A stretch of 35,113 nt of DNA from Candidatus Cloacimonadota bacterium (GTDB lineage: Bacteria; Cloacimonadota; Cloacimonadia; Cloacimonadales; Cloacimonadaceae), in assembly GCA_020532515.1 (NCBI GenBank), contig JAJBAY010000013.1:1-35113 (forward strand), in the 5' to 3' direction. A model generated the notes under the pieces. That model worked only from the letters and a program-made list of their open reading frames with translations. It did no database searches and was not told the origin of the DNA. Position numbers and translations under genes: made by a program. Within the stretch, counting starts at the first letter, position 1, and the number at the start of each line of letters is the position of its first letter. Positions 4,500 to 18,741 of the stretch are shown one piece after another.

Positions 4500-5753
4500 T
4501 TAATTGAATCCCTGGGAGATAGCTTCACCGAGTTCAAAGATGGGCAGATAGATCACGATGATGATGGTACCTACCACGAGGGCCATAATCACGATCAAGA
4601 GGGGTTCGATCAATGAAGTGAGGCGATCGATCACACTATCCACCTGTTTCTCGTAGAACTGTGCTGCTTTACCCAACAGTTTATCCATATCTCCGGTTTC
4701 TTCTCCAGTGGAGAGCATTTGCAGGAGCGTGGAGGGGAAATGTCCGGTTCTGCGGAAGGCATTTGCCACGCCATATCCTTCTTTCACCAGGACGCGTGCG
4801 CGGCGCACGGCACCTTCGATCACGGCATTTTGCACCACATTTTCAGTGAGCTCCATGGTATCCATAATCGGCACACCGGCAGCCATGAGGATGCTGAAAG
4901 TTCGGGAGAATTTACTCATGATGGAGTTTCTAATTACACCTCCCACTACGGGAATACGCAATTTGATGGTATCCATCACGAAGCGTCCCCGATCGGTGAG
5001 ATACACCAGGAATAACGATGCTATGGCCAAAAGGAAGATCAGAATGGCCAGAAACAGGTTATTCACAATGAAATTCGAGATGCTGATGGCAATAAGAGTT
5101 GGCACCGGCAATGTGGCATTGAAATCTGCATACACAGCGGCAAACATGGGAATGATGAAATAGAACATACCCCAGACCACACCGATCAGGAAGACCAGGA
5201 TGAACATGGGGTAGGCCATGGCCGAGGTCACTTTGCGGCGGGTGTCTTCGATCTTTTCCAGATAGTCTGAAAGTTCGTCCAAGACGGTGTGCAGGGTACC
5301 AGAAATCTCACCGGCCTGCACCAAAGCCACATAAAGTGGGTTAAACACACCGGGGTGCTGCTGAAAAGCTTCGGAAAGGGAGAAACCCTTGCGGATATCA
5401 TCTCCGATCTTACGCAGAACTTTGGCAAATTTCTTGTTTCTCTCTTCTTTTTCCAGGTCTGTTATTGCTTTTTCGATGGTAAGACCGGCGGAAAACATGG
5501 TGGAAAGCTGACGTGTGAAAAACACGAGGGTCTTGAGGGAGACACCAGTACGGATTTTGTAGATGGTGAGCATGACCTTGTCAAAGAGCGAGAGTTTCCC
5601 CTTAAACGCTCCTTCTGCAGCCGCTCTTACCGATATAATGGTTGAGCCCTCTTTGGAGAGCTTGTCCACTGCCATATCGAGAGTATCAGCTTTGATCAAG
5701 CCCTCTACACGGGCGCCTTTGGCGTCCTTAACGATGTAGGAAAAGTTTGGCAT
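4500..5753 (-). CDS. pilC: Type IV pilus inner-membrane platform protein PilC (GspF family)
   Basis: A 417-aa integral membrane protein with the duplicated GspF domain. The first domain has FFTRQLSTMFSAGL and VALVQAGEISG; the second has FSRTFSILMAAGVPIMDTM and MLSTGEETGDM. Three hydrophobic segments are visible, near residues 180-205, 225-250 and the C-terminus. PilC is the cytoplasmic-membrane base on which PilB and PilT act to polymerise or withdraw pilins. The ATG at 5753 is preferred over the in-frame GTG at 5759, because the AAGG binding site is 9 bases from the ATG but only 3 from the GTG. It is the last gene of the pilus locus, 24 bases after pilB, and is followed by a terminator-like hairpin. 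Confidence 0.93.
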   Translation of the reverse strand: MPNFSYIVKDAKGARVEGLIKADTLDMAVDKLSKEGSTIISVRAAAEGAFKGKLSLFDKVMLTIYKIRTGVSLKTLVFFTRQLSTMFSAGLTIEKAITDLEKEERNKKFAKVLRKIGDDIRKGFSLSEAFQQHPGVFNPLYVALVQAGEISGTLHTVLDELSDYLEKIEDTRRKVTSAMAYPMFILVFLIGVVWGMFYFIIPMFAAVYADFNATLPVPTLIAISISNFIVNNLFLAILIFLLAIASLFLVYLTDRGRFVMDTIKLRIPVVGGVIRNSIMSKFSRTFSILMAAGVPIMDTMELTENVVQNAVIEGAVRRARVLVKEGYGVANAFRRTGHFPSTLLQMLSTGEETGDMDKLLGKAAQFYEKQVDSVIDRLTSLIEPLLIVIMALVVGTIIIVIYLPIFELGEAISQGFN

Positions 5754-5777
5754 ATACACTTACCTTCTTAGTCTATC

Positions 5778-7487
5778 TTATTCTACTACAGTCATCTTGA
5801 TGACTTCGCGGATGGTGGTGATGCCACGTTTCATTTTGGAGATGGCGGCATCATGCAAAGTGCGCATCCCTGAATTCAGGGCAGAGGCACGGATGAGATC
5901 CTGATTTCCACCATCATAAATTAACTGGCGGGTTTCTTTGTCCACAGTGAGCAGTTCAAAAATACCGGTACGGCCTGCGAAGCCAGTATTATCGCAGTGT
6001 ACACAGCCTGCGCCAATCTTGAATTTGGCTTCTTGGATGTCTTTTTCGGTGAGGCCGGAATCTGTGATCTCCTGCTGGGTAGGCTGATAATCCTGGATGC
6101 AATAGGGGCAGATCTTACGCACAAGACGCTGTGCCATCACCAAGGAAAGGGAGGAGCCAACCAGGTAAGGTTTGATTCCGATATCGATGAGACGGGTAAC
6201 TGTGGAAGGTGCGTCGTTCGCATGCAGGGTGGTAAACACGAGGTGACCAGTGAGTGAAAACTTGATCGCGATATCTGCGGTTTCTTCGTCACGAATCTCA
6301 CCGATGAGGACGATATCCGGGTCTTGACGCAGAACAGAGCGCAGGGCAGCACTAAAGGTAAGGCCGATTTGCTCTTTGGTTTCGATCTGGGTGACGCCTT
6401 CGAGGCGATATTCCACGGGGTCTTCCACGGTAACGATATTGGTTTCGATATCCAGAATTTCTTTTAGAGCGGCGTGCAGTGAAGTGGATTTTCCACTACC
6501 GGTGGGGCCGGAAACTATGATGATGCCATAGGGGCGGCGAATGATCTTGTCGAAGATCACCATGTCTTCCGGTTCAAAGCCCAGGGTCTTGAGTGTGAAA
6601 CCAAAATCACCCTTGTCCAAAAGACGCATCACGACCTTTTCTCCAAGCACAGTGGGGGTGATGGACACACGTACGTCAACGCTCTTTACAGCGGTCTTGA
6701 GTGAGATGTGACCATCTTGGGGCAAGCGGCGTTCAGCGATATTCAGCTTACTCATCACCTTAACCAGGGAGATGAGGCCGGGGTGCATGCCGATGGGAGG
6801 TGTCATTACTTCGCGCAGGGCGCCGTCAATACGATAGCGCACCCGGGTGGTTTTTATCAAAGGTTCGATATGAATATCTGTGGAGCCGGCTTTGATAGCT
6901 TCATTGATAATCAGATTCAAAAGCTTGACCACGGGAGCATCGGCATCGGTGGAAGCCGCGGAAATAGAGATTTCATTCTCATCTTCATCCACTGCTACAA
7001 AGTCAAAGCCACCTACAGCATCCTCCACCTGGGAGGTAGTACGAATGCTCTTGTAATACTTTTCGATAGTATCGAGCAAAACCGAATCGGCGATGAGCTC
7101 AGGTTTGATGTTTTTACCGATGAGCTTTTTGAGACTGTCCAAAACTGTGAGATTCTCAGGATCGGCGAAGGCTACGACTACTCCATCGCCTTCCTCACGA
7201 AGCGCTATTACTCTATTTTCCAGGGCATAAGGTTCTGGAATGAGGGAAACTATGCTGAGATCGAGGTCCATCAGCTCATTATCTTTTACAATATCATACC
7301 CGAGCTGTAAATGCAGAGCGGTGAGCAATTGTCTTTCGGTAATGTAACCAAGCTTGAGCAAAGTATCTCCGATCTTCAGACCAAAATTTGTCTGCTTGAT
7401 CAGGGCTTCTTTGACCATGTCTTCGCTTACGAATCCTTCATGTACCAGGACTTCACCGAGCCTGGCGAATTGTGGGTTGAAACTCAT
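5778..7487 (-). CDS. pilB: Type IV pilus extension ATPase PilB (GspE family)
   Basis: A 569-aa hexameric ATPase powering pilus extension. The N-terminal 150 residues form an MshEN/T2SSE_N-type domain, of which some members bind c-di-GMP. The motor domain has Walker A GPTGSGKS (327-334), an aspartate box around TVEDPVEY (353-360), Walker B around DIVLIGEIRDEET (391-403) and a His box TGHLVFTTLHAND (413-425). Two CxxC pairs (C460/C463 and C495/C498) give the zinc-binding module typical of PilB/GspE and absent from PilT. An AAGGA binding site lies 8 bases before the ATG. The gap to the preceding lipoprotein gene is 136 bases and contains a stable hairpin, so pilB-pilC may also be transcribed from their own start. 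Confidence 0.95.
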   Translation of the reverse strand: MSFNPQFARLGEVLVHEGFVSEDMVKEALIKQTNFGLKIGDTLLKLGYITERQLLTALHLQLGYDIVKDNELMDLDLSIVSLIPEPYALENRVIALREEGDGVVVAFADPENLTVLDSLKKLIGKNIKPELIADSVLLDTIEKYYKSIRTTSQVEDAVGGFDFVAVDEDENEISISAASTDADAPVVKLLNLIINEAIKAGSTDIHIEPLIKTTRVRYRIDGALREVMTPPIGMHPGLISLVKVMSKLNIAERRLPQDGHISLKTAVKSVDVRVSITPTVLGEKVVMRLLDKGDFGFTLKTLGFEPEDMVIFDKIIRRPYGIIIVSGPTGSGKSTSLHAALKEILDIETNIVTVEDPVEYRLEGVTQIETKEQIGLTFSAALRSVLRQDPDIVLIGEIRDEETADIAIKFSLTGHLVFTTLHANDAPSTVTRLIDIGIKPYLVGSSLSLVMAQRLVRKICPYCIQDYQPTQQEITDSGLTEKDIQEAKFKIGAGCVHCDNTGFAGRTGIFELLTVDKETRQLIYDGGNQDLIRASALNSGMRTLHDAAISKMKRGITTIREVIKMTVVE

Positions 7488-7623: not shown

Positions 7624-9933
7624 TTAGAACGGAGCAGTACCACCATAACGATAGACCGATAAAATCGTGCTATTTATGAGGTTTGTACCCATCAACCGTG
7701 CTGTGATATTAACATCTTTTTCACTGGGTATATTCAGTTGGTCATCACCTACTTGGAATTCGGTGCGCCAGACCTTGATTCTGCTATGACCTATACCTTG
7801 GTAGGTGGTCACGAGTTCAGGGTGACTTATATCACCATAGTTCGGAGGATTCTGGACATAGCCTGGATTGCCAGGGAAATAATGATCCGTATGCAGGATG
7901 ATCTGACCGCGATCGCAGTACATCAGGAACTCACTTCCGGTGATATCCAGTCCCTGACCATCAGTAAGGTAAAACGAGATGTCAGCTTCTTTGGTGTTTG
8001 GTGCCGTATGACCAAAATTCACGAACCGGGGAATGACCTGAATGTCAAGCCGAGGATCGTTCAGAGGTAGTACTACTTCTGAATACACGTCCACGGGCTC
8101 GCCAAATTCACCGCCTGAGCGAGCGAAAATGGTGATCTTATCATTGGTCATGAGTCCATTATATGTGATCGTGGTAAAAGCCACACCCACTAATGTATCG
8201 CCGTCCACACTGGAGTTTCCGACTGATCCACCAGATTGAATCTGTGCTGCAGTATAGGGTTTATAGTCAGCATTGGCGCCTTCCCCATAAATCTCGAATT
8301 GGACTACGGTAGCATTTTGCACAGGGTTTTGCCATCTGTCACGTACATGCGCACCAGCTACCACGCGCCACACACCGCCGCCCATGTTTACACCAGTATT
8401 AAAACCACTGATGAAGGGCACGATGGTGTGAGGAGGCCCGGATTGGATGATGATATTGGGTTTGGTGGATTGGATATATCTTCCTTCTTCTGTGGTGCAG
8501 GAGGCACGGATAATCAGCATACCGGATACTGTGCCGGCATTTACCGAGACCTGAGCCTCACCGCCATTTGAAGTCACCATTACTGAATCAGTAGGGCTGG
8601 CATTATTCAGATTGGCGCCAGCGGGCATGCTGGAGGGAGAATTCATAATCTTGAAATACACTTGCTGAGGCTTATCAATCAGGTTTCCATTGATGTCACG
8701 CAGCTTTAAACGCAGCACTGCGGATTGAAGTCCACCAGTATTGGCTACGTTTAGTGTGATCATGTCCTGCTGGGTGAAATCTATGGAATGGATCTGATCT
8801 GAGGTAATATTAAAGATCAGAGAAGTCTGCAGAGTGTCATTGAGCGCAGACGCGCCAATAGTGGCTGCTCCGGCAAAAAGGCCGGGAGTAAAGCGCACTC
8901 TGGCTACTCCGAATTCATTGGTTTGAATGTTTACACTTTGAGTAGTATTCAAGAAAGTACCAAGGTCTGTGGTGAACTTTACATTCTTACCTTGGACGGT
9001 GTTGTTGTACATATCCACCAGGGTGCTTTCCATGAAAATCTGGTTTTGACTACCCACGTGAGTGGTATCAGCTTCCACTTCGACCCCATCTACAGTCACG
9101 AGACTGCGGATTTCGATTCCAAAAGGAGTCCCCGGACGGATCATGATGTCTCTATAATCAGAGACATTACCAATCCTGGCAATAACTTTTTCGGGTACAC
9201 TTTCTGGATTCGTGGTTGCTGAGGTGCCGGAATTGTAGAATATAGCAGCTCTGCCATTGAAGGTAGGACGGTGAACCACTTTGCCCAGATCGTTGTCAGC
9301 CTGGTCTACAAATTTACCTTTGATGCACTCAAGGGTAATCAGAGTACCATCAGGCACTACGTCACCTAAAGCATTCAGGGCGGTTGCATACACGGGTACA
9401 GTTTGAGCAACTTTCATGGGGAAAGGTCTTTGCATGTTGTCAAAATGCAGGGTAACACTTTCAACAGCAGGTGGTTGTTCCACCGTGATTTGAACAGAAA
9501 GTGTGTCTGCAGAAATCAGAGAATCTTTCTCTGTTTCGTGGAATTTACGGACAATCGCTGTCACGGTCGCGATGCCGGACTGTCCATCATCCCAAAAGAC
9601 AGTGGTAGCTATACCGGTGCTGTCTGTGGCAACATCTGCAAGCACGCGTCCGATGGGGGCGGTCTTAAACTTTACCATCTGTCCGGGTACGCCAAAACCT
9701 TCACCATCACGAATCTCTACCTTGATGGTGGAATAGGTGATGTTGTTATCCGCATAGATAGTATCCGGAGAGGCCGACATTTTGTGAATGATGCGCACAT
9801 CACTCAGCGGTGTCGGTATCGGCGGCGCAGGCAGAATGGGGGGTGGATTACGTTTATCGCAGGAGGCCGAAAGGCTCACCAGGATAATTGCGATCAAAGT
9901 CAATATTGGGACCAGGGAATTAAGTTTTTTCAT
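7624..9933 (-). CDS. Large lipoprotein with bacterial Ig-like (Big_1/invasin-type) repeats, in the pilus operon
   Basis: A 769-aa protein, not recognised as a named pilus component. A lipoprotein-type signal occupies residues 1-24, with the lipobox-like SASC placing the lipid-modified cysteine at 25. A proline-rich linker follows (PPPILPAPPIPTP). The rest is a series of Ig-like beta domains. Clear invasin/Big_1-type segments are SPDTIYADNNITYSTIKVEI with VPGQMVKFKT, and GKNVKFTTDLGTF with TNEFGVARVRFTPG. It should be exported and anchored to a membrane. Its start overlaps the pilQ stop (ATGA, 9930-9933), so it is translationally coupled to the secretin, and pilB follows. A secretin-anchoring, pilus-exit or surface-adhesion role is inferred from position only. 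Confidence 0.8.
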   Translation of the reverse strand: MKKLNSLVPILTLIAIILVSLSASCDKRNPPPILPAPPIPTPLSDVRIIHKMSASPDTIYADNNITYSTIKVEIRDGEGFGVPGQMVKFKTAPIGRVLADVATDSTGIATTVFWDDGQSGIATVTAIVRKFHETEKDSLISADTLSVQITVEQPPAVESVTLHFDNMQRPFPMKVAQTVPVYATALNALGDVVPDGTLITLECIKGKFVDQADNDLGKVVHRPTFNGRAAIFYNSGTSATTNPESVPEKVIARIGNVSDYRDIMIRPGTPFGIEIRSLVTVDGVEVEADTTHVGSQNQIFMESTLVDMYNNTVQGKNVKFTTDLGTFLNTTQSVNIQTNEFGVARVRFTPGLFAGAATIGASALNDTLQTSLIFNITSDQIHSIDFTQQDMITLNVANTGGLQSAVLRLKLRDINGNLIDKPQQVYFKIMNSPSSMPAGANLNNASPTDSVMVTSNGGEAQVSVNAGTVSGMLIIRASCTTEEGRYIQSTKPNIIIQSGPPHTIVPFISGFNTGVNMGGGVWRVVAGAHVRDRWQNPVQNATVVQFEIYGEGANADYKPYTAAQIQSGGSVGNSSVDGDTLVGVAFTTITYNGLMTNDKITIFARSGGEFGEPVDVYSEVVLPLNDPRLDIQVIPRFVNFGHTAPNTKEADISFYLTDGQGLDITGSEFLMYCDRGQIILHTDHYFPGNPGYVQNPPNYGDISHPELVTTYQGIGHSRIKVWRTEFQVGDDQLNIPSEKDVNITARLMGTNLINSTILSVYRYGGTAPF

Positions 9934-11321
9934 TCTTCCTCCTCTTCTTCGTATTCGATAAGAGTGCGGGTAAGTCTTTCATCCAATTTGGGTGTAGGAC
10001 TCTGTTCATTCATCTGGACCAATCTGGGAGTGATTTCCATGATCAGGTCTGTATTCTCTACCATCTCATAACGGTGCTGAAAGAGTCTGCCGATAAAAGG
10101 CAAGTCACCCAAGAGGGGCAGTTTGCTGGTTTTTTGGGTAATAGAAGAATTGAGCAGCCCACCCACGATGATTTTATGTTCATTGGGCACGGTAACTGTA
10201 GAGGATACGCGACGCACTCTGGTACGTGGCACATAACCACCCACAAGATCGGTCACGGAAGATACTTCCGGAGCGATTTTGGCGGTGATATTGCCGTCTT
10301 TGTTCACAGTAGGAGTCACAGCCAGTATGATGCCGACTTGTTCACGTTCTACCTGAATCTGCTTTTCGTTGTCAGTAACTACAAAAGGAATCACTTCACC
10401 AATATGCAGTGTGGCTTCTTCGCCGTTAAGGGCGGTCACCCGGGTATCGGTAAGCAGTTTGGCAGCGTTATTTTCCAACAGCCAATCAATGGTGATATCA
10501 AAAGCTGTAAGCTGGCGGCTGAAATGGCCAATATCATCAAAGCCATTGATTCTCTGGAAATACTGGTCATCCGGTAATTTCTCCAAATCCGTAGGATCGC
10601 CATGAGGCAGATAACCTGTTTCATCCGAGTAGTTGAAAGGTAAGCCGGTTTTATTGGCATTTACAGGGTCTTCTGCAATGATGGTGGTAAGGTGGTTCAG
10701 ACGACTCCAATCAACACCCACTTTCTTGGAACTGGTGAGGTTGATCTCGATGAGGCGAACCCTGATTTCGATCTGTTTCTGCTCAGTATCAATTCCTTGA
10801 ACCAAAGTGCTGACTTGCTCAAAGGTCTCCTGGTTGGCATAGACCATGATGGCATTCTGCCCTTCCAGAGGAACAATGTTGATTCCTGTGTTTTGCAGGG
10901 AAGCGGCTACTTTGGCAGCATCCAGATTGTTCAGGTAGAGGATGTTGCTGCGCTCGCCCACTTCTTCCATCACGTTTTGCTTCGTACCCACCACGAAGGT
11001 GTTTCCGGCAAGCACACGATAGGCAAGACCAGTGGTGCGGGCTACCAGGGATACCGCAGTTTCGATCGGCACATCTTTGATGTTAATGGTCACGCGCTTT
11101 TCTTCGCGTTTATCTTTGTCTCCGCTTTGATCGACGGCCAATACAATATTGGTACCGGAAAGCCGGGACAATGCGTTCAATACAGAGGACAAGGTGGCGT
11201 CATCCGCATTAAAGGTAACCTTGGTAGTCATTGGATTTACCTGAGCCACCAGCGCTGAAAAGGCAAAGATCAGCACCAGGATCAGGCAGAGATATTGCTT
11301 ACTTGAAAGCATGTGTTTCAT
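9930..11321 (-). CDS. pilQ: Type IV pilus secretin PilQ
   Basis: A 463-aa outer-membrane secretin through which the pilus leaves the cell. The start at 11321 has GGGAG 6 bases upstream. The frame could open at a TTG at 11354, but that would overlap pilP and lacks a binding site. The signal peptide runs to about LVAQ near residue 27. An STN/N0-type domain follows (VTFNADDATLSSVLNALSRL), then an N-domain (ILYLNNLDAAKVAASLQN), then the secretin core with ATLHIGEVIPFV, VGIILAVTPTV, VPNEHKIIVGGLL and KLPLLGDLPFIGRLF. It is short for a PilQ and has no AMIN domains. The C-terminus ends in six consecutive glutamates. It lies 26 bases after pilP and overlaps the next gene by four. Confidence 0.93.
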   Translation of the reverse strand: MKHMLSSKQYLCLILVLIFAFSALVAQVNPMTTKVTFNADDATLSSVLNALSRLSGTNIVLAVDQSGDKDKREEKRVTINIKDVPIETAVSLVARTTGLAYRVLAGNTFVVGTKQNVMEEVGERSNILYLNNLDAAKVAASLQNTGINIVPLEGQNAIMVYANQETFEQVSTLVQGIDTEQKQIEIRVRLIEINLTSSKKVGVDWSRLNHLTTIIAEDPVNANKTGLPFNYSDETGYLPHGDPTDLEKLPDDQYFQRINGFDDIGHFSRQLTAFDITIDWLLENNAAKLLTDTRVTALNGEEATLHIGEVIPFVVTDNEKQIQVEREQVGIILAVTPTVNKDGNITAKIAPEVSSVTDLVGGYVPRTRVRRVSSTVTVPNEHKIIVGGLLNSSITQKTSKLPLLGDLPFIGRLFQHRYEMVENTDLIMEITPRLVQMNEQSPTPKLDERLTRTLIEYEEEEEE

Positions 11322-11347
11322 ATTTACTCCCACTATTATAATATATT

Positions 11348-11887
11348 TTACCAATTACCACTGATTCCTGCTTTGAGATAGGGGTCTTCAGCTTTCAAAA
11401 CAGGTCTGGGCATCAGATTTGCTGTATAGCTTTGTCCGCCCATTGAGTAGCGGATATTCTTATCATTTATTTCCAGAATCTTGCGTCCGGCAACCACTTC
11501 ACCCACCCGGGCTTCATAGCGTTTGTCCAGGTATTCGACATAGGCAATCTTATTGCCATATTCATCGATAGCGGTGGTGGCGAGGCGGAAGGTATTGCGA
11601 ACCATATCCTCAAATTCCTTCAAGCGGTCCACATTATCTTTGATGATGTTTCCTTGGCGCAGAGGGTCTTTGCGGGTTCCAAATACAAACATCTTACGAT
11701 CCTGGATGGAACTTTCAATGGTACGGATTCTGGTCATCAGAGTATCGGTAACAGATTCCTGGATATGAATAGAGGTTTCAGGAATTACAGATACCTTTCG
11801 GTGTACTACCACCAGACGGACCACAAGGACTCCCAGTAGTATTACAATCAGGGCTATAGCGAGGTCTTTTACAAATCTATATTGCAT
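11348..11887 (-). CDS. pilP: PilP-like pilus assembly protein
   Basis: A 179-aa protein with a single N-terminal membrane segment (residues 8-28), a short coiled region, then a small beta domain. The motif FGTRKDPL near residues 70-77 corresponds to the R-DPF segment of PilP/GspC-type proteins, which link the PilN-PilO inner-membrane complex to the secretin. The later GEVVAGRKILEINDKNIRY resembles the PilP homology domain. Its place between pilO and pilQ supports the call. Typical PilP is a lipoprotein, but this one is anchored by a transmembrane helix and lacks a lipobox. Confidence 0.7.
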   Translation of the reverse strand: MQYRFVKDLAIALIVILLGVLVVRLVVVHRKVSVIPETSIHIQESVTDTLMTRIRTIESSIQDRKMFVFGTRKDPLRQGNIIKDNVDRLKEFEDMVRNTFRLATTAIDEYGNKIAYVEYLDKRYEARVGEVVAGRKILEINDKNIRYSMGGQSYTANLMPRPVLKAEDPYLKAGISGNW

Positions 11888-11889
11888 GT

Positions 11890-12441
11890 TTAGGCCTCCT
11901 TCTTCACTTTGAACATAGAGAGCTCCAAAAGCACGCGGTAACGTGAAGGAGCATTGACATCCTTAGTATCTTTATCAGTCATCTGCGCTGGACTAATATC
12001 CAGAGTCTGAATCTTGATAATATTATCTTGAGATTCCAAGTCCGAGATAAACTGACCAATCTGTACATAAGTGGCTTCCAGCTCCAGATTGAAGGTGGTC
12101 TCGATGAGGTTTGGCAAAGACCACTTATTGGTATCGGACAGTTTATTGATAGAGATATGACGCTCATGCGCAATGTCTCCAATCGTGGCCTTGAATTCGT
12201 TAATTTCCTCAAAGCTGAATTGTTGTGTGCGGGTGAGGCTATTTTCGATGATCCTAGCAAACTGACTAAGCTCCTGATCCATGATGCGGGCGCTGTTCAA
12301 TTGCTCCTGTGTGGTTTTGATGCGATCATCCAAATTGCTGATCTTGCTCATATTGGCTTCCAGGCTACGAGTGGAAAGCAAGATGAAGGCTACAGTGACA
12401 GCCAGCATCACGATGATAAAGGCAAAGTACTTTTCTCTCAT
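11890..12441 (-). CDS. pilO: PilO-like inner-membrane pilus assembly protein
   Basis: A 183-aa bitopic membrane protein that would pair with PilN in the alignment complex. The start at 12441 overlaps the pilN stop (ATGA) and has AGGGGTGA close upstream; a start 12 codons earlier is less likely. The order is a short cytoplasmic N-terminus, one membrane helix (residues 5-22), a periplasmic coiled coil (about 25-70), and a C-terminal ferredoxin-like domain with the PilO-like segment YVQIGQFISDLESQDNIIKI. It lies between pilN and pilP. Confidence 0.8.
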   Translation of the reverse strand: MREKYFAFIIVMLAVTVAFILLSTRSLEANMSKISNLDDRIKTTQEQLNSARIMDQELSQFARIIENSLTRTQQFSFEEINEFKATIGDIAHERHISINKLSDTNKWSLPNLIETTFNLELEATYVQIGQFISDLESQDNIIKIQTLDISPAQMTDKDTKDVNAPSRYRVLLELSMFKVKKEA

Positions 12442-13037
12442 TTTATCACCCCTACTCCCTTTCCTGGAGTATAACACTCGATCACAAATTCAAAAATAGC
12501 AGTATCTTTGATCACTTGTCGGATCACTTGGCCACTCTTGATATTCGGGAAATCATTGGAAATCTCCGGATTTGATTTTAAGCGATCGATAAAGCCATTG
12601 ATCAGATCGAACTCTTTAACTTTGGTGCTAACTTCGGTAATGCCATTGATGGTAAGAACCCCATTGGCATAGTCAAATTTACGTACAGCAAGTTTATCGT
12701 CGATTTCGGCGCCCAAGGCTACCATTTTCCTAGCCCAGAAGATGCGGTTGTCAAAGGTTTTTGCCAAGCGATCCAGGTCTTCTGAAGACAGATAATCTCC
12801 GCTGGTGCGGTAGCGCTGCAATTCTCCCTGAATCTCAGCGAGATAATTCTCACGCGCTTCCAGTTTGTGTTTAGTACTGCCGATAATATAAAACCAGGCG
12901 ACCAGGACCAGGATAAAGCAGATCGCAAAAACGATGACGGAATTTCTGAATGTCTTATTCTCGCGTTCTTTTTCCAGGCGCTGTTCACCGTATTTATTTA
13001 AGTTTATCTTGAAGTAGAAATCGTGTTTCATCGCCAT
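12438..13037 (-). CDS. pilN: PilN-like inner-membrane pilus assembly protein
   Basis: A 199-aa bitopic protein. Its short N-terminal tail has FKINLNKY, which corresponds to the INL-P motif by which PilN binds PilM. It is followed by one membrane helix near residues 32-52, a coiled coil with RENYLAEIQGELQRY, and a periplasmic domain. The start is ambiguous: an ATG at 13037 has GGAG 7 bases upstream, and an ATG two codons later (13031) has AGAGG 6 bases upstream. It is four bases after pilM and overlaps pilO by four. Confidence 0.8.
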   Translation of the reverse strand: MAMKHDFYFKINLNKYGEQRLEKERENKTFRNSVIVFAICFILVLVAWFYIIGSTKHKLEARENYLAEIQGELQRYRTSGDYLSSEDLDRLAKTFDNRIFWARKMVALGAEIDDKLAVRKFDYANGVLTINGITEVSTKVKEFDLINGFIDRLKSNPEISNDFPNIKSGQVIRQVIKDTAIFEFVIECYTPGKGVGVIK

Positions 13038-13041
13038 CCTC

Positions 13042-14112
13042 TTACTCCAGCCTCATTGCCAAGCCGATAGCAAGGCTAAGTTGTGGATCCTTTTTATCTT
13101 GAAATTTTTCCGGCATTTCCACATTGATAAAGGGCATAAACACTTCTGTGGGAACGTTGACTTTATCCTGAAGATATTCTGGCAAACCTTTCAGTTTGGC
13201 GGTTCCACCCATCAGGTAGATCTTTCTAAAGTCACTATTTCCGGCTTCTTTAACATAGAAACGAAGCGAACGACGCAGTTCTTCAGCGATGGCATCTTCG
13301 GTAGATTTTTCGGAGATATCCAGCATACTGATGGTTTGAATAGTTGGACGGGAGGGATCATCCGTAAGCCCAAAATCGAATTTGTACTGCTCAGCTTCTT
13401 CCCATTCCATCTGTCTTTTACGCATGATATCTGTGGTGAAGTGGAATCCACCATAAGGGATATCGCGGGCAAAGAATTTTGCATCCGGTCCCCAGATTAT
13501 CATGTTTGTTCTGTGTGCACCGACGTTCAGCAGCACATAAACACCTTCTTCTGCAAAGGCGTTCAAGGCAAAGCTATTTGCCACGGCCAGGGAATCGATA
13601 TCCACGATATGAGGACTGAGTCCGGCAGTAGCAAGAACATTTGTGTGATCATTGAGCACGTCCTTGGAGGTAGCGGCGAGGAGGATGTTCATGTTGTTTG
13701 TCTTTTCCTCTACAGAGAGCACTTGATAATCCAGTACCATGTCTGTTCCACTGATCGGGATGTGTTTCTTGGCTTCAAAGAAAAGGGCAGATTCCAATTC
13801 ATCATCCGGCAGAAAGATAGTCTTAATCTGCTTGATGCTGGTATTGTCTCCACCGATAGATGAAACCAGGTGTTTGATTTTCTTAGGTGAGATCCTCAAA
13901 GTTTTCAGCATTTCAACGATCACCGGAGCATAACGCTCTGGCCGTAGATCGCTGAGTACGTACTCAACCCCTTGAGGCACAGTAGGGCGCACCTCATAGT
14001 TCAAGAGCTTGAAGCCATCATGAAGCTTTTTGAGGTGTACGATTTTCACACTATGGGTACCGACGTCGATCCCCACAGTCTCCTTGAATCGAACGGTTTT
14101 GTTCTTCTTCAT
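13042..14112 (-). CDS. pilM: PilM, actin-like pilus assembly ATPase
   Basis: A 356-aa cytoplasmic member of the actin/FtsA/Hsp70-like fold. The phosphate-1 motif GIDVGTHSVKIV lies near residues 14-25, a second phosphate motif LLNVGAHRTNMII near 195, and the adenosine motif IYLMGGTAKLKGLPEYL near 308. PilM binds the N-terminal tail of PilN and connects the cytoplasmic motors to the periplasmic complex. It starts the pilM-N-O-P-Q cassette in the standard order, 29 bases after the large PilX-like gene. Confidence 0.93.
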   Translation of the reverse strand: MKKNKTVRFKETVGIDVGTHSVKIVHLKKLHDGFKLLNYEVRPTVPQGVEYVLSDLRPERYAPVIVEMLKTLRISPKKIKHLVSSIGGDNTSIKQIKTIFLPDDELESALFFEAKKHIPISGTDMVLDYQVLSVEEKTNNMNILLAATSKDVLNDHTNVLATAGLSPHIVDIDSLAVANSFALNAFAEEGVYVLLNVGAHRTNMIIWGPDAKFFARDIPYGGFHFTTDIMRKRQMEWEEAEQYKFDFGLTDDPSRPTIQTISMLDISEKSTEDAIAEELRRSLRFYVKEAGNSDFRKIYLMGGTAKLKGLPEYLQDKVNVPTEVFMPFINVEMPEKFQDKKDPQLSLAIGLAMRLE

Positions 14113-14141: not shown

Positions 14142-16088
14142 CTATACTAAGGACCTGACGGGCTTTTTAATATTCCAATCTCCCTGATTCATGGGGTTTT
14201 TGCCGCCTTTCAGTCTCACTTTCGGGTACAATAGAGGGGTCACCTCTAAGAGCCGGTTATCGTAGTTATAATTCTTTTTGTATCCCACTCCGCTGCCTTG
14301 AGCTCCGGGAAAGTCCCGGCTCTGCAAACCGATATTGCCAAATTCAGGATCAGGAATATTTTCGATGGGGCTTGAGTCGTAACCACATTTATCTTTGTCA
14401 ACATCCCAGATTCCGTTATTTGAAGGATATTCGGTGTCATGGTGGCTGCGGTGAACGAATCCGCGCCTTCTTTGCGCTACTGCGCCCCAGACATTGATGG
14501 TGCCACGTTCCAGGTATGGCTTGCGCTCTGGCCAGAGCGGGTTATAATAAGGCAGGTCCAAAGAAGTCTGATTCAAAGACGGAGTAGGCCAGGGCTGAGA
14601 AGTAGTGGGGGGATAGCGCCTGCGGTGGATGTCAATCCAGTCAAAGAGTACTATCTCATTCGTTCCGTCCGGGTAGGTTAGCTGTACGTTCAGAGCCGGA
14701 GTGGAGGGATGCGGGTGTTGATATTCAAATTCAAAGACACCGTCTTGAAAGCTATTCCCATCTCCATCGCCCAAGGCGCACAGGGCAGCATAGATAAAGA
14801 TGCCACCGCCAGCCGGATCTGCATAATCACCATCAGCGCCCATATTGGGGTGATACCTAAGGGAGTCAGTTGGATCTTTAAAACCGTAACTTACCTGAAT
14901 AGATTTTTCTGAGACCAGACCGACTACGTCTCTGTTATTCATGGGGTCTGCTGGGTTACCCGGAGGAGGCGTGCCAGTCAATAATATATCGCCGATTAGC
15001 TTCATCTTCCCGGAGCTACCCCAGGTTTGGTATCCAGTAAATCTACCTCTGATCCACAGCTCTCCGTTGATGTAATAGGCGTTACCCTGGCACTGAGAGC
15101 CTCCGAGGGAGCTCCAGGATGTATCTGCTATGCTAAAAGAGTTTGTCCACAAAGAGTCGCCAGGGGGTGGATAATGGTCATAAACGACCTTTCTTACGCG
15201 ACGTGGAGAGCTTATGGAGCCATGCCAGTTATCAAAGACGGAACCGTCCACAGTTACCATATATATGTTGCCTTCGCCTGCCCCGATCTTGATGCCTTTT
15301 GCGCTAAGTTCATTGGCGAGGGGAGGGAATTCATAGCCGTCATAATTTTCCACCAATCCACCCCGGAACACCTGAGTCAAAGGGTAACTTGAAGGAGTGG
15401 AAACGACCTCTCCGGCAGTGGTAACCAAATTCAGGAAAGTAGGCCAACCGCCATTATTCCCGCCGCCGGCTTGCTTAATCTTGATATCGCTGTTACTATG
15501 TACCTTGCCGGTCACCACGTCGTAGCCATAGAAATAAACGTTTGTGTTATTTGGACTCATGTCGTTATCCGTAAAATACATAAATTCTGAGAAGCTGGTC
15601 TGAATGATGGTGAGTTCAGAGTATTTACGAATTTGAGTCTTATTGGAACCGTAATAAGCTACTTGCCCCACGCCTTGTTTGGTCTCCACCAGAGAACGAA
15701 TTTGGTAATGCTCTCTGCCTTCACCCAAGCTTCCAGTGGAACCGTCGGTTCCAGGGATCTCAATGTTGTCCGTTTGCTCTGTTTTTACCTTGTATATACG
15801 GCTTTGTGATGTAAAAGTTCTTTTAATGTGGCTGCCGGAAACCGGAATGCTACGCAGTTCAGTTTGCATAGTTCCGCCTTGATCGCTGATTTGCTCCAAA
15901 ACAGCTTGCCCACGATATGCTTCTCCCCGCAAAATGTGCAGACTTTGGATGCTCTCAAACTCCCAGTGGAAGCTTTTGGTGTCCTTCAGGGCCAAAGCGG
16001 CCATGCTGACCCCACTCATGAGGCCCACCACGGCAAGGAGCATTGCGATGGCCAGGTTACCACTTTGATTGCTTAGTATATTTCGCAT
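14142..16088 (-). CDS. Large PilX/GspK-like minor pilin-type protein
   Basis: A 648-aa protein with a pilin-like N-terminus: short basic leader ending in SG, then a hydrophobic stretch NLAIAMLLAVVGLMSG and SMAALAL. There is no glutamate at position 5 of the putative mature protein, as in GspK-type minor pseudopilins. The remaining about 600 residues form a beta-rich, aromatic and glycine-rich exported domain with segments such as MYFTDNDMSPNN, GKVHSNSDIKI and ERGTINVWGAVAQRRRGFV, similar in feel to DUF4900/PilX-associated proteins. Its position among prepilin genes and just before pilM supports a role at the pilus tip or in priming. The size is far above usual PilX (about 200 residues). Confidence 0.6.
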   Translation of the reverse strand: MRNILSNQSGNLAIAMLLAVVGLMSGVSMAALALKDTKSFHWEFESIQSLHILRGEAYRGQAVLEQISDQGGTMQTELRSIPVSGSHIKRTFTSQSRIYKVKTEQTDNIEIPGTDGSTGSLGEGREHYQIRSLVETKQGVGQVAYYGSNKTQIRKYSELTIIQTSFSEFMYFTDNDMSPNNTNVYFYGYDVVTGKVHSNSDIKIKQAGGGNNGGWPTFLNLVTTAGEVVSTPSSYPLTQVFRGGLVENYDGYEFPPLANELSAKGIKIGAGEGNIYMVTVDGSVFDNWHGSISSPRRVRKVVYDHYPPPGDSLWTNSFSIADTSWSSLGGSQCQGNAYYINGELWIRGRFTGYQTWGSSGKMKLIGDILLTGTPPPGNPADPMNNRDVVGLVSEKSIQVSYGFKDPTDSLRYHPNMGADGDYADPAGGGIFIYAALCALGDGDGNSFQDGVFEFEYQHPHPSTPALNVQLTYPDGTNEIVLFDWIDIHRRRYPPTTSQPWPTPSLNQTSLDLPYYNPLWPERKPYLERGTINVWGAVAQRRRGFVHRSHHDTEYPSNNGIWDVDKDKCGYDSSPIENIPDPEFGNIGLQSRDFPGAQGSGVGYKKNYNYDNRLLEVTPLLYPKVRLKGGKNPMNQGDWNIKKPVRSLV

Positions 16089-16097
16089 TATTTCTCC

Positions 16098-16739
16098 TTA
16101 TTTCTTCACCATGTAAGTACTATAGCTGATGGTTTTATATTCGTCTGGAGCAGGGTGTTTGCCCTCACGGATTTTCACGCGGGCTTCCAGCTCTATGTGC
16201 AATAAAGTCGGTATATCATTTGGTTCAAAACCGGTGAGGGGCAAGATATTGCCAGTGTTATTGGCATCTCTGACCGCGAAACGGGTCACCTGAATCCTAT
16301 CGCTATCCTCCCGGGATGGGAAGATATATTTTGGGCTATCCACCCCTACTTCTTTATAAACATAATTCATCCGGATTATGCCATCTTCCAGATAAAATGA
16401 GAGCCAGTCGCTCGTCGCTTTTTCTTTGCCAGCCGGAGGTGTAATATGGATACCAGTGCCCGTATCCCAGCTGTCGCTGTAACCGATGATTTTCAGTTCT
16501 TTGGCATTGGCCACACCATAAAACTGCTCTCCGCGATTGAAGGCATAACCGTTGCGTATAGTTTGCAAGCAGGCCATGGCATCAGTTTGCAGAGCGGTAA
16601 AATCGGTGATTATTTTGTATCTTTTGTAAAATGCACTTACCCCGATGGCTGAGATCACGATCAGGATAGTGGACATTGCCATCACCGCGATCAGTTCAAT
16701 CAGGCTTACACCATCGTTTCTTTTTAGTATTTTAAACAT
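16098..16739 (-). CDS. Type IV prepilin-like protein (minor pilin, PilW-like)
   Basis: A 213-aa protein with a class III signal: the leader ends in DG at residue 10, cleavage would give mature VSLIELIAV, with the conserved Glu at mature position 5, then a hydrophobic helix to about residue 32. The globular part has no obvious catalytic motif. It is placed nine bases before the PilX-like gene and three after another prepilin, an arrangement usual for minor pilins that initiate the fibre. Assignment to PilW rather than PilV or FimT is by order and length only. Confidence 0.75.
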   Translation of the reverse strand: MFKILKRNDGVSLIELIAVMAMSTILIVISAIGVSAFYKRYKIITDFTALQTDAMACLQTIRNGYAFNRGEQFYGVANAKELKIIGYSDSWDTGTGIHITPPAGKEKATSDWLSFYLEDGIIRMNYVYKEVGVDSPKYIFPSREDSDRIQVTRFAVRDANNTGNILPLTGFEPNDIPTLLHIELEARVKIREGKHPAPDEYKTISYSTYMVKK

Positions 16740-16742
16740 GAT

Positions 16743-17216
16743 TTAGTTCCCCGCCCTGACGTAGAAGTCTTCACGCATTTCCACATATTGGGTTTTATCG
16801 GTAAGGGGGTCTTTCCATTCTATCCTAGATGTGACCTGGGTATAGGGGTACTGATTGGAGCCCATTAGTTCAGATTGGCGAATGGCACTGACACTTTGCA
16901 TGCCGATCAGAGGCTCGCCTTTTTTTATCATATCGATTACCACTTCTCTACCGCTGAAGGGGCTGAATTCAAGATCGTTACGGTTTGCATGGTACTTGTT
17001 TATAAAATACTGCTTATCCAATTCGCCGGTAGCCAACAAAGTGGCGGCTCTCATACGGTAGTTGAGCACAGTTTGTTTTTCCGCGTATTGAATTCCTATA
17101 TATATTGTGATCACCAAGACGGACAAAACTGCCACGGTAACCAGCACTTCTAAAAGGGTGACCCCCCGCTCATTATCGAGCAGGCAGGTATTGTCATGTA
17201 AAAAGCGGGGTGTCAT
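16743..17216 (-). CDS. Type IV prepilin-like protein (minor pilin, PilV-like)
   Basis: A 157-aa prepilin. The start at 17216 is chosen because upstream codons fall inside pilT, and AAGGGA lies about 9 bases before it. The leader is long (18 residues, ending in ERG) and is followed by VTLLEVLVTVAVLSVLVI, with Glu at mature position 5. A globular domain with EMREDFYVRAGN at the end follows. It overlaps no gene but starts 13 bases after the pilT stop. Confidence 0.78.
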   Translation of the reverse strand: MTPRFLHDNTCLLDNERGVTLLEVLVTVAVLSVLVITIYIGIQYAEKQTVLNYRMRAATLLATGELDKQYFINKYHANRNDLEFSPFSGREVVIDMIKKGEPLIGMQSVSAIRQSELMGSNQYPYTQVTSRIEWKDPLTDKTQYVEMREDFYVRAGN

Positions 17217-17229
17217 CTTAAACCATCCC

Positions 17230-18285
17230 TTAGAAACCAGCGCCACTGGCAAAGAGTTTCGGATTTTCTGCCACTTCTTCAGCAACGGTACGTTCCACGT
17301 AGTTATTCATTACGAGATTATACAAAGACTGATCTTTGGTCTGCATTCCTTCTTTGGTAGAAGACTGAATGATAGACGGAATCTGATAGGTCTTTTCTTC
17401 GCGGATTAGGTTTCGGACGGCAGCGTTTGCCAGCATGATTTCCACGGCTGGGACGCGGCCTTTACCGTCTTTGGTAGGCAGCAGAGTTTGTGAGATTACT
17501 GCTTCCAGAGATTCTGAAAGCATGCTCCGCACCTGTTGTTGCTGTTCTTTGGGGAACATATCGATCACGCGATCGATAGATTTTGTGCAACTTCCGGTAT
17601 GCAGAGTAGCGAAAACAAGGTGACCTGTTTCTGCAGCTGTCAACGCAAGTGACACGGTCTCCAGGTCACGCATCTCACCCACCAGGATCACGTCTGGGTC
17701 CTGCCGCAGTGCACTTCTCAGTGCGGCGGTGAAGCTCCAGGTATCATGGCCCAGCTCACGCTGGTTGATGAGGCTATTCTTACTACGGTGTACAAATTCA
17801 ATGGGGTCTTCCACAGTGATGATATGGCAAAAACGGTTGTCATTGATACTGTCAATCATAGTCGCCAGGGTTGTGGATTTTCCGCTTCCGGTGGGTCCTG
17901 TTACCAGGATGAGTCCCTTTTCCTTTCTGGTAAGACGTTTGAGTACCTCGGGCAATCGCAGCTCTTCGTAAGACATGATCTCATTTGGGATCACACGAAA
18001 AGCGGCAGAGATGCCGTTGATCTGATGATAAGCATTAACACGGAAACGTACATCGGTCGAAAGCTTGGTGGAAAAGTCAATTTCCAGATTCTTGCGAAAC
18101 AGTTCCTGTTGCACTTCATTCATCACACCATAGACGAGGTTCTCTACGTCTTCCGGAGATAAGACCGGAAGGTTGAGTCTTTTCATCTTGCCATTGACTC
18201 GCACCATGGGGTGCGAGCCTGCAGCAACGTGAAGGTCGGACGCTCCCGCCTCAGCGGTAAAGCGCAGTAGTTCGTGAATTGTCAA
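17230..18285 (-). CDS. pilT: Type IV pilus retraction ATPase PilT
   Basis: A 351-aa hexameric ATPase that powers pilus retraction. It has the PilT N-terminal domain with SDLHVAAG, Walker A GPTGSGKS (130-137), the aspartate box TVEDPIEF, Walker B around DPDVILVGEMRD, the His box TGHLVFATLHT and, near residue 300, AVRNLIRE, the PilT-specific motif needed for retraction. It lacks the CxxC zinc module of PilB. The start codon is TTG at 18285, with GGAGG 8 bases upstream and no ATG alternative nearby. It lies 18 bases after pilA. Its place immediately after the pilin is unusual but supports co-expression. Confidence 0.95.
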   Translation of the reverse strand: MTIHELLRFTAEAGASDLHVAAGSHPMVRVNGKMKRLNLPVLSPEDVENLVYGVMNEVQQELFRKNLEIDFSTKLSTDVRFRVNAYHQINGISAAFRVIPNEIMSYEELRLPEVLKRLTRKEKGLILVTGPTGSGKSTTLATMIDSINDNRFCHIITVEDPIEFVHRSKNSLINQRELGHDTWSFTAALRSALRQDPDVILVGEMRDLETVSLALTAAETGHLVFATLHTGSCTKSIDRVIDMFPKEQQQQVRSMLSESLEAVISQTLLPTKDGKGRVPAVEIMLANAAVRNLIREEKTYQIPSIIQSSTKEGMQTKDQSLYNLVMNNYVERTVAEEVAENPKLFASGAGF

Positions 18286-18303: not shown

Positions 18304-18741
18304 TTAGTCGGTCTCCAGTCCTCCGGAGTCAGGATTGGTCCAGGTGTCGATGCCGTAACCATGATATTTAGCTTCCGGAACGTCATACCATACCTGTTTA
18401 CCTTCGCCACCGGCGAATTCCTGTGTGGAGGTTGCAATATACTTATTAGGGGGATTTCCTACTACTTCAAATTTCCAATTCTTACGTGTAGCCTCACCCA
18501 AGCTGGCTTCTCTTTGAGCCATTTCGAGAGAGAAACCATCGGTGGAACCGTTTGTCTGTAAGTAGATGTCATAAGCTTTGCGGATGGTAGAAATAGCCGT
18601 TTGGGCTTCTGTGCTACGGGATTTCTCCACATAACGCAAATAACGTGGTACCGCAATCGCTGCCAGAATGGCGACGATGATAACTACCACCAACACTTCG
18701 ATAAGGGTGAAACCCTTTTGGTTTTTCAGTTTTCTGAGCAT
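18304..18741 (-). CDS. pilA: Major type IV pilin PilA
   Basis: A 145-aa prepilin. The leader MLRKLKNQKG is cleaved before FTLIEVLVVVIIVAILAAIA, with Glu at mature position 5 and the following long hydrophobic alpha helix ending near residue 35. The globular part is about 100 residues and contains no cysteine pair, so it lacks the C-terminal disulphide loop of neisserial pilins. An AGGAGG binding site lies 8 bases upstream. It is the first gene of the locus, with a sigma54-type promoter 48-64 bases before the start. Confidence 0.93.
   Translation of the reverse strand: MLRKLKNQKGFTLIEVLVVVIIVAILAAIAVPRYLRYVEKSRSTEAQTAISTIRKAYDIYLQTNGSTDGFSLEMAQREASLGEATRKNWKFEVVGNPPNKYIATSTQEFAGGEGKQVWYDVPEAKYHGYGIDTWTNPDSGGLETD

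Follow-up and report, generated by a model that had tools for sequence, protein, structure and literature searches.

A Large Minor Prepilin of Cloacimonadota Shares Its Module with Type IX-Secreted Surface Proteins

Introduction

The K subunit of the HIJK minor-pilin complexes (GspK, PilX/PilK), which is encoded in the order I-J-K, has been placed at the tip of the pilus, partly since it lacks the assembly glutamate Glu5 (PMC9934059). Modular pilins with adhesive modules are also predicted at the tip (PMC8179133 and PMC10191384). For instance, PilB and PilC of Streptococcus sanguinis have a functional module (vWA and lectin, respectively) grafted on a pilin and are predicted to be tip-located (PMC8179133 and PMC9934059). 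The solved structure of ComZ from Thermus thermophilus shows a beta-solenoid inserted into a large minor pilin that has Gly5; its gene follows those of smaller minor pilins, and the protein binds DNA (PMC6561018). A large effector at the pilus tip is also known in the PilC/PilY1 adhesin.

Gene conversion acts on surface-displayed modules in Neisseria (pilE/pilS) and Mycoplasma (MgPa). In these systems, conversion draws on silent or partial donor copies and makes the displayed protein vary.

Here, a 648-aa protein (K, P0001) from the type IV pilus locus of a Candidatus Cloacimonadota genome is compared with these systems. Like ComZ, it is a minor prepilin of large size that lacks Glu5, has one large extra domain and follows smaller minor pilins in the gene order. 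It differs from ComZ in that this domain, the module, is shared with separate proteins secreted by the type IX system (hereafter LONG). The reading considered probable is that K caps an I-J-K complex at the pilus tip and that its portable module is kept matched with that of LONG, most likely for the reason that both bind the same ligand.

The Pilus Locus and the K Gene

The window under study is a whole contig (G000:C35) of 35,113 nt, belonging to a genome of 2.33 Mb in 150 contigs that is 93% complete and 4% contaminated. The 648-residue reading frame at 14142-16088 that an earlier note had pointed out is real and intact and is located on the minus strand: it begins with an ATG at 16088 and reaches 14142 with no internal stop, the plus strand being full of stops (table 1). 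The closest named relative of the protein shows 75% identity and lies on a contig of a Candidatus Cloacimonadota MAG. The frame is not a product of chance, since relatives are found in 55 of the 59 genomes searched and the family profile, which also matches LONG proteins, has matches in 100 of the 124 genomes of the phylum. No relatives of K were found in plasmids or viral contigs.

The locus is transcribed from right to left in the order PilA, PilT, two minor prepilins, K, PilM, PilN, PilO, a PilP-like protein, PilQ, a Big_1/Ig protein, PilB and PilC. A prepilin peptidase is also encoded, as the genome search showed. K occupies the gspK-like slot of a type IV pilus locus (pilA-pilT-I-J-K-pilM-N-O-P-Q), immediately preceded by two GxxxxE-type minor prepilins and immediately followed by pilM, in agreement with the earlier description of K as encoded among prepilins. 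No H subunit was identified.

Table 1. Coordinates of the K gene, its parts and the neighboring pilus genes in the window
Feature	Coordinates	Strand	Remarks
K (P0001), modular minor prepilin	14142..16088	minus	648 aa; stop codon included in coordinates
K class III-type leader, residues 1-10	16059..16088	minus	Ends in invariant Gly10; Gly -1 in 101/101
K hydrophobic N-terminal helix segment, residues 11-34, without Glu5	15987..16058	minus	No Asp/Glu at +3 to +7 in 101/101; weak geopilin match
K pilin frame, N-terminal part, residues 1-170	15579..16088	minus	Missing from LONG proteins; shared stretch starts near residue 165-172
Sub-threshold DUF4900 match in K, residues 158-205	15474..15617	minus	22.7 bits vs cut-off 29.4
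K portable module, residues 171-612	14253..15578	minus	Common to type IX-secreted LONG proteins
K C-terminal tail, residues 613-648, possible last pilin strand	14145..14252	minus	Weak coupling with residues 149-166; LONG similarity stops near 612-618
Major pilin, PilA-like	18304..18741	minus	N_methyl 40.3 bits
PilT retraction ATPase	17230..18285	minus	TIGR01420 483 bits
Minor prepilin, I-like	16743..17285	minus	N_methyl 27.8 bits; GVTLLE; weak gspI match
Minor prepilin, J-like	16098..16739	minus	N_methyl 16.7 bits (below cut-off); GVSLIE; conserved neighbor
PilM	13042..14112	minus	PF11104 164.9 bits; co-occurs with K family
PilN, by position	12438..13037	minus	PilN model 15.0 bits, below cut-off
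PilO	11890..12477	minus	PF04350 25.7 bits
PilP-like, by position	11348..11887	minus	No Pfam match; place conserved
PilQ secretin	9930..11354	minus	PF00263 126.6 bits
PilB assembly ATPase	5778..7487	minus	TIGR02538 585 bits, below cut-off 675.65
PilC platform protein	4500..5759	minus	TIGR02120/NF052607 350.8/335.3 bits, both below cut-offs

The gene order of the window recurs in relatives whose loci extend far enough. In detail, 84 of the 106 K genes have more than 700 nt on both flanks; 58 of these are located exactly between J and pilM, another 11 occupy that slot as well, either in tandem or next to a prepilin, and the remaining 15 are found in arrays elsewhere or alone. The place of K beside the minor prepilins, for which a synteny comparison had been suggested, is therefore conserved across relatives.

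Some loci deviate from this arrangement. In genome G040 (loci L153, L044, L045, L120, and L135), the pilus operon has I, J and then pilM, with the K slot empty, and the K genes form dispersed arrays and single copies on other contigs, one copy being broken into two frames; K need not, therefore, be made together with the operon. K arrays away from pilin genes are also found in G048 (L128 and L130). At L028:3354-4840 (plus strand), the pilM downstream of K consists of four overlapping short frames and is either broken or badly assembled.

Two further observations concern the window itself. The TTG start listed for the I-like prepilin (16743-17285) gives an unusually long leader and is probably too far upstream; judged by eye, an ATG 23 codons in is more usual. 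Between pilQ and pilB (7624-9933, minus strand), a 769-aa protein with Big_1/Invasin_D3 Ig-like domains is encoded, whose N-terminus resembles that of a lipoprotein by eye, and a relative of this protein holds the same place in those pilus loci of relatives that reach so far.

The N-Terminus and Distribution of the K Family

K starts with MRNILSNQSG followed by NLAIAMLLAVVGLMSGVSMAALALKD, that is, a short leader with Gly at -1, approximately 24 hydrophobic residues and Ala at +5. Out of 106 K-type sequences examined, 101 have an intact N-terminus; in these, Gly at -1 is invariant (101/101), Asp or Glu at +3 to +7 never occurs (0/101), and Ser at +15 and Asp at +26 are present in 96 and 89 sequences, respectively. 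The leader and the hydrophobic run, which are features of class III signal peptides, are kept across the K-type sequences. The class III prepilin-like N-terminus without the assembly glutamate, previously noticed in the window protein, recurs in all 101 of these K-type sequences.

In the window protein, an alanine-rich stretch near residues 28-31 is readable as a signal peptidase I site, and K would then be a cleaved periplasmic or surface protein which is in the operon by chance. This is hardly credible, given that Gly at -1 is invariant, that the hydrophobic run has the length of that of a pilin, and that the K gene follows PilM across genomes and sits beside minor prepilins. A signal peptidase I site and a lack of association with minor pilins had been named as what would speak against a prepilin; no such site is conserved, and the minor prepilins are constantly associated with K.

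In the loci with K, Glu5 is present in PilA (18/18), in most of the J prepilins (57/75), and in only 38 of the 69 I prepilins that could be called (of 71). In this sample, therefore, K is the only one from which Glu5 is always missing. The I-like prepilins without Glu5 include 16 with Gln and 6 with His (69 called), though I is expected to keep this residue.

PilM is over its cut-off in 99 of the 124 genomes of the phylum. All 99 have a K-family match, compared with one of the 25 genomes without PilM (G022, in which K is cut by a contig end), which shows that the K family belongs with this pilus.

The profile of approximately the first 165 residues of K, compared with the PDB at E up to 5, retrieved just two chains, both N-terminal subunits of geopilin, with weak E values of 0.072 and 0.57 but located where a pilin N-terminus would be expected. 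No N_methyl match over the cut-off was found in K, and the T2SSK, GspK, and PilY1 models had none at E up to 1. From the two domains whose search the earlier note had advised, PilX_N is absent at the same E limit and DUF4900 was found below its cut-off only (residues 158-205). The latter is the sole family match in K; with an E limit of 0.1, 33 of 53 members show it. Among control genomes, DUF4900 matched Deinobacterium chartae and Thermotoga maritima but not Thermus composti. DUF4900 is named in none of the papers covered by the literature search. Pfam covers the module only by this sub-threshold fragment.

In gene order and in the lack of Glu5, K resembles GspK and the PilX/PilK of HIJK complexes, whose lack of Glu5 is stated in PMC9934059. 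The two differ in that an alpha-helical domain is found there, whereas K has a module of ~440 residues and no match to their models. K is approximately twice as large as GspK and nearly four times as large as PilX; the earlier note had put the exported part at about three times the usual PilX/GspK.

With PilC/PilY1, K would share the place at the tip and perhaps the role. K is itself a prepilin, and the PilY1 propeller (PF05567) has no match in it at E up to 1. Scanning with the PilY1 model gave no hit in the own genome or in 58 relatives, but none in any of the 14 control genomes either, so PilY1 is only tentatively called absent.

A Module Shared with Type IX-Secreted Proteins

Residues ~165-615 of K recur in the separate LONG proteins of 900-1000 aa. 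These begin with an ordinary short signal peptide (by eye) and carry a sorting domain of the type IX system; the module lies between two further parts, one preceding and one following it. Por_Secre_tail was found in all seven LONG proteins scanned, in six of them over the cut-off. The own genome has two LONG copies, on contigs 59 and 74, both of which are among its 93 sorting-domain matches, and it also encodes SprA, an outer-membrane component of the type IX system (505 bits). That this secretion system may be present in Cloacimonadota is mentioned in PMC11285876. The large domain of K is hence not specific to pili, a fact that is not visible from the window alone, and K agrees in this respect with modular pilins, the extra domain of which is also found outside pili.

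In total, 202 module-bearing ORFs were reduced to 177 distinct sequences. Those with a module ending at most 60 aa from the C-terminus and a length of at least 500 aa were classed as K (106 rows), and those with at least 100 aa after the module as LONG (62 rows); 9 rows were dropped as fragments or unclassed.

LONG is present in 35 of the 55 K-bearing genomes and in none of the four K-less ones, by a hand count from the table of relatives which includes two short frames taken as cut by contig ends. In the phylum-wide search, the 24 genomes without K have no match to the profile, which would have matched LONG. These genomes are not independent, since many come from one family and some are incomplete, and few independent losses underlie the link between LONG and the pilus.

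LONG genes can be arranged in tandem. In G052, L042 has a head-to-tail series of four and L043 one of two, at ~2.9 kb per gene.

Structural Hints and the Comparison with ComZ

An AF2 prediction from two sequences only (the window protein and L031) had a mean pLDDT of 26 and gave no usable structure. Coupling analysis showed strong pairs at offsets of 14-27 residues within the module, namely 35 of the top 150 where 9 were expected. Such offsets are what stacked short strands would give, parallel and antiparallel strands being not distinguishable from couplings, and a solenoid is suggested for the module on this basis, though suggested only. For the C-terminal tail, the best coupling partner is the stretch 149-166, with 12 pairs above z 3 vs 5.7 expected. 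This recalls the topology of ComZ, in which the beta-solenoid is inserted before the last pilin strand, and is to be taken as a hint which proves nothing. Neither the single-sequence nor the profile search gave a match worth the name to ComZ in the PDB, and the sequence profiles of K reach no GspK, PilX or ComZ. In K, the module is seemingly followed by a short tail of the pilin frame; in this, and in the module itself, which has no Pfam family, it differs from PilB/PilC of S. sanguinis.

If K were a counterpart of ComZ also in function, its role would be DNA uptake. The resemblance to a large DNA-binding Gly5 minor pilin with an inserted domain speaks for such a role, as does the presence of ComEC in 54 of the 59 genomes searched. 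ComEC was not found in the window genome, either through loss or through a gap in an assembly that is 93% complete; every other member of its genus in the set has it. The genomes G011, G015, G042, and G050, which have no K-family match and no PilM, have all retained ComEC. ComEC does not, therefore, follow K, and for this reason DNA uptake is treated as a rival and not as the main role. Nor does the presence of the module in type IX surface proteins agree well with a DNA-uptake receptor. Overall, DNA uptake is an unlikely role for K.

Evolution of the K and LONG Modules

The tree of the 168 modules (106 K and 62 LONG) requires at least 21 changes between the two forms. A second tree was based on 22 same-genome pairs, which were chosen by hand once the 168-row tree had been inspected; each genus supplied one pair, and each pair included a close own K. 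Among these pairs, 17 are direct sisters, and 20 changes are needed, 19 of which are forced by the starred branches. Monophyly of LONG is rejected in this tree, as it costs 1496 log-likelihood units (p-AU 1.6e-5).

The nearest relatives of the LONG modules are found close at hand. For the 58 LONGs with a K in their genome, the nearest K belongs to the same genus in 56 cases and to the same genome in 35. The own-genus match holds for all LONGs in 22 out of 24 genera, and 48 of 60 LONGs are closer to a K of the same genus than to any LONG of another genus. In family f9, the best same-genus identities average 64%, compared with 55% after shuffling of the K genus labels (61.5% at most in 2000 shuffles). 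Family f1, to which the window belongs, counts against a concerted evolution, as in the large tree most of its K modules fall into clades apart from those of its LONG modules; so do the 23 of 58 LONGs whose nearest K lies outside their own genome.

The likeness extends to the DNA. Same-codon use exceeds the level obtained by shuffling within amino acids with z>3 in 14 and z>2 in 32 of the 58 same-genome pairs, whereas in controls with the best K of another genus the respective numbers are 0/58 and 7/58. Shared codon usage as a cause of the same-genome likeness is thereby ruled out for the 14 pairs with z>3 and may, at the DNA level, account for the remaining ones. Two of the 14 are from the genus of the window (G006 and G010), and the own two pairs of the window genome have z values of 2.8 and 2.3. 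A mosaic is seen in G121, in which the K and LONG modules show 82% amino-acid identity with an identical run of 234 nt and flanks of 32-49%. Identity along this pair is ~0.4 just before residue 155, 0.95-1.00 up to 235, ~0.7 at 256-335, 0.9-1.0 at 336-435, and mostly lower thereafter. Taken together, the nearest K in the same genus, the rejected monophyly of LONG and the sharing of codons show that the module has been repeatedly exchanged between the pilus protein and the cell-surface protein.

The module tree alone would look identical if the LONG proteins were many independent fusions of the K module, formed without any conversion. The parts of LONG outside the module speak against this, as they form one family across the order and have no match to K. 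In detail, a model of the part before the module, built from f9/f13, finds 20 of 31 LONGs of f1 and all 10 others, and the respective model of the part after it finds 11 of 32 and 7 of 9. Modules have therefore been replaced inside a standing protein; the mosaic profile of G121 also needs partial replacement. Independent fusions are accordingly disfavored as the origin of the pattern and are regarded as very improbable.

The LONG branch is the longer one in 15 of the 17 sister pairs (sign test 0.002), which fits K as the usual donor. The direction of conversion would thus be probably mostly from K to LONG.

The conversion may be neutral, with two paralogous stretches of ~1.3 kb converting by chance homology and the two proteins binding different things. 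Gene conversion between repeats is common in bacteria, and the patchy identity seen within pairs is what chance tracts would produce. However, the baseline DNA identity of many pairs is only 50-60%, low for frequent recombination, and yet own-genus matching is found in 22 of 24 genera; moreover, LONG was not found in genomes without the pilus. A purely neutral origin of the likeness is consequently judged somewhat unlikely, and a common ligand is taken as the best explanation for a module that occurs on both the pilus and the surface and is kept alike within genomes.

Unlike in pilE/pilS and MgPa, the exchange here takes place with a seemingly intact gene that encodes a different exported protein, and it leads to likeness within a genome. 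In the available text on the S. sanguinis PilB/PilC pilins, an exchange of modules with proteins of another export system is not described. Searches of the literature on Cloacimonadota type IV pili and type IX secretion, on modular pilins, on concerted evolution or gene conversion with pili and on a domain common to both systems, covering few subscription journals and mostly titles and opening lines of abstracts, gave no apparent description of the K protein or of the exchange. The same applies, in the texts accessible, to a domain homogenized between the products of two different export machines.

A Proposed Role for K

The account of K as a prepilin that resembles GspK, lacks Glu5, has a large extra domain and takes the third position of an I-J-K series is supported by the locus and the family. 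Its location at the tip is supported by the published logic for K: the K of HIJK complexes is at the tip and lacks Glu5, modular pilins are predicted there, and ComZ offers a precedent, which makes K most likely a tip cap by analogy.

In the proposed mechanism, K would enter by the prepilin pathway and cap the complex that it forms with the minor pilins I and J, at the tip of a retractile type IVa pilus. As no further subunit could be added above a K without Glu5, the module of ~440 residues would be carried at the tip. The module is seen as a portable binding domain, which type IX-secreted surface proteins of the same cell carry in another frame, and the K and LONG copies would be kept alike by repeated intragenomic replacement through gene conversion. 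We infer an adhesin role for the module of K, and the likeliest reason for the likeness would be one ligand shared by the pilus tip and the cell surface: the tip would catch the ligand, PilT would retract the pilus, and the surface copies would hold what has been caught.

A more specific version is put forward tentatively, with the odds rather against it. It sees a matched display, in which one module is presented on the tip of a retractile pilus and on the type IX surface, the copies being matched by gene conversion within a lineage and drifting between lineages. The ligand caught by the pilus and handed over to the matching surface copies could be a partner cell, a polymer or the module itself.

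The last of these possibilities leads to homotypic or kin recognition, where the module binds itself and the pili of one cell grip LONG on a sister cell. This would directly select for matching of the copies within a genome and for the loss of LONG together with the pilus. Self-binding is purely hypothetical, though, and the matching is mostly at the level of the genus (56/58) and less at that of the genome (35/58), which leaves kin recognition quite unlikely.

As a candidate tip pilin, K would extend the modular tip pilins to a largely uncultured phylum. More unexpected is the exchange of a module between the pilus tip and surface proteins of the type IX system, as it connects two export systems that research mostly treats separately. 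The shared module may also give a clue to what Cloacimonadota pili hold on to, and the dozens of lineage-matched module pairs amount to a natural experiment on shared specificity.

The size of the module varies within the family. In genera g43 and g28 (L146, L147, L149, L150, and L151), K proteins have 763-780 aa, and their module has a long insertion and measures ~570-590 residues, as compared with ~440.
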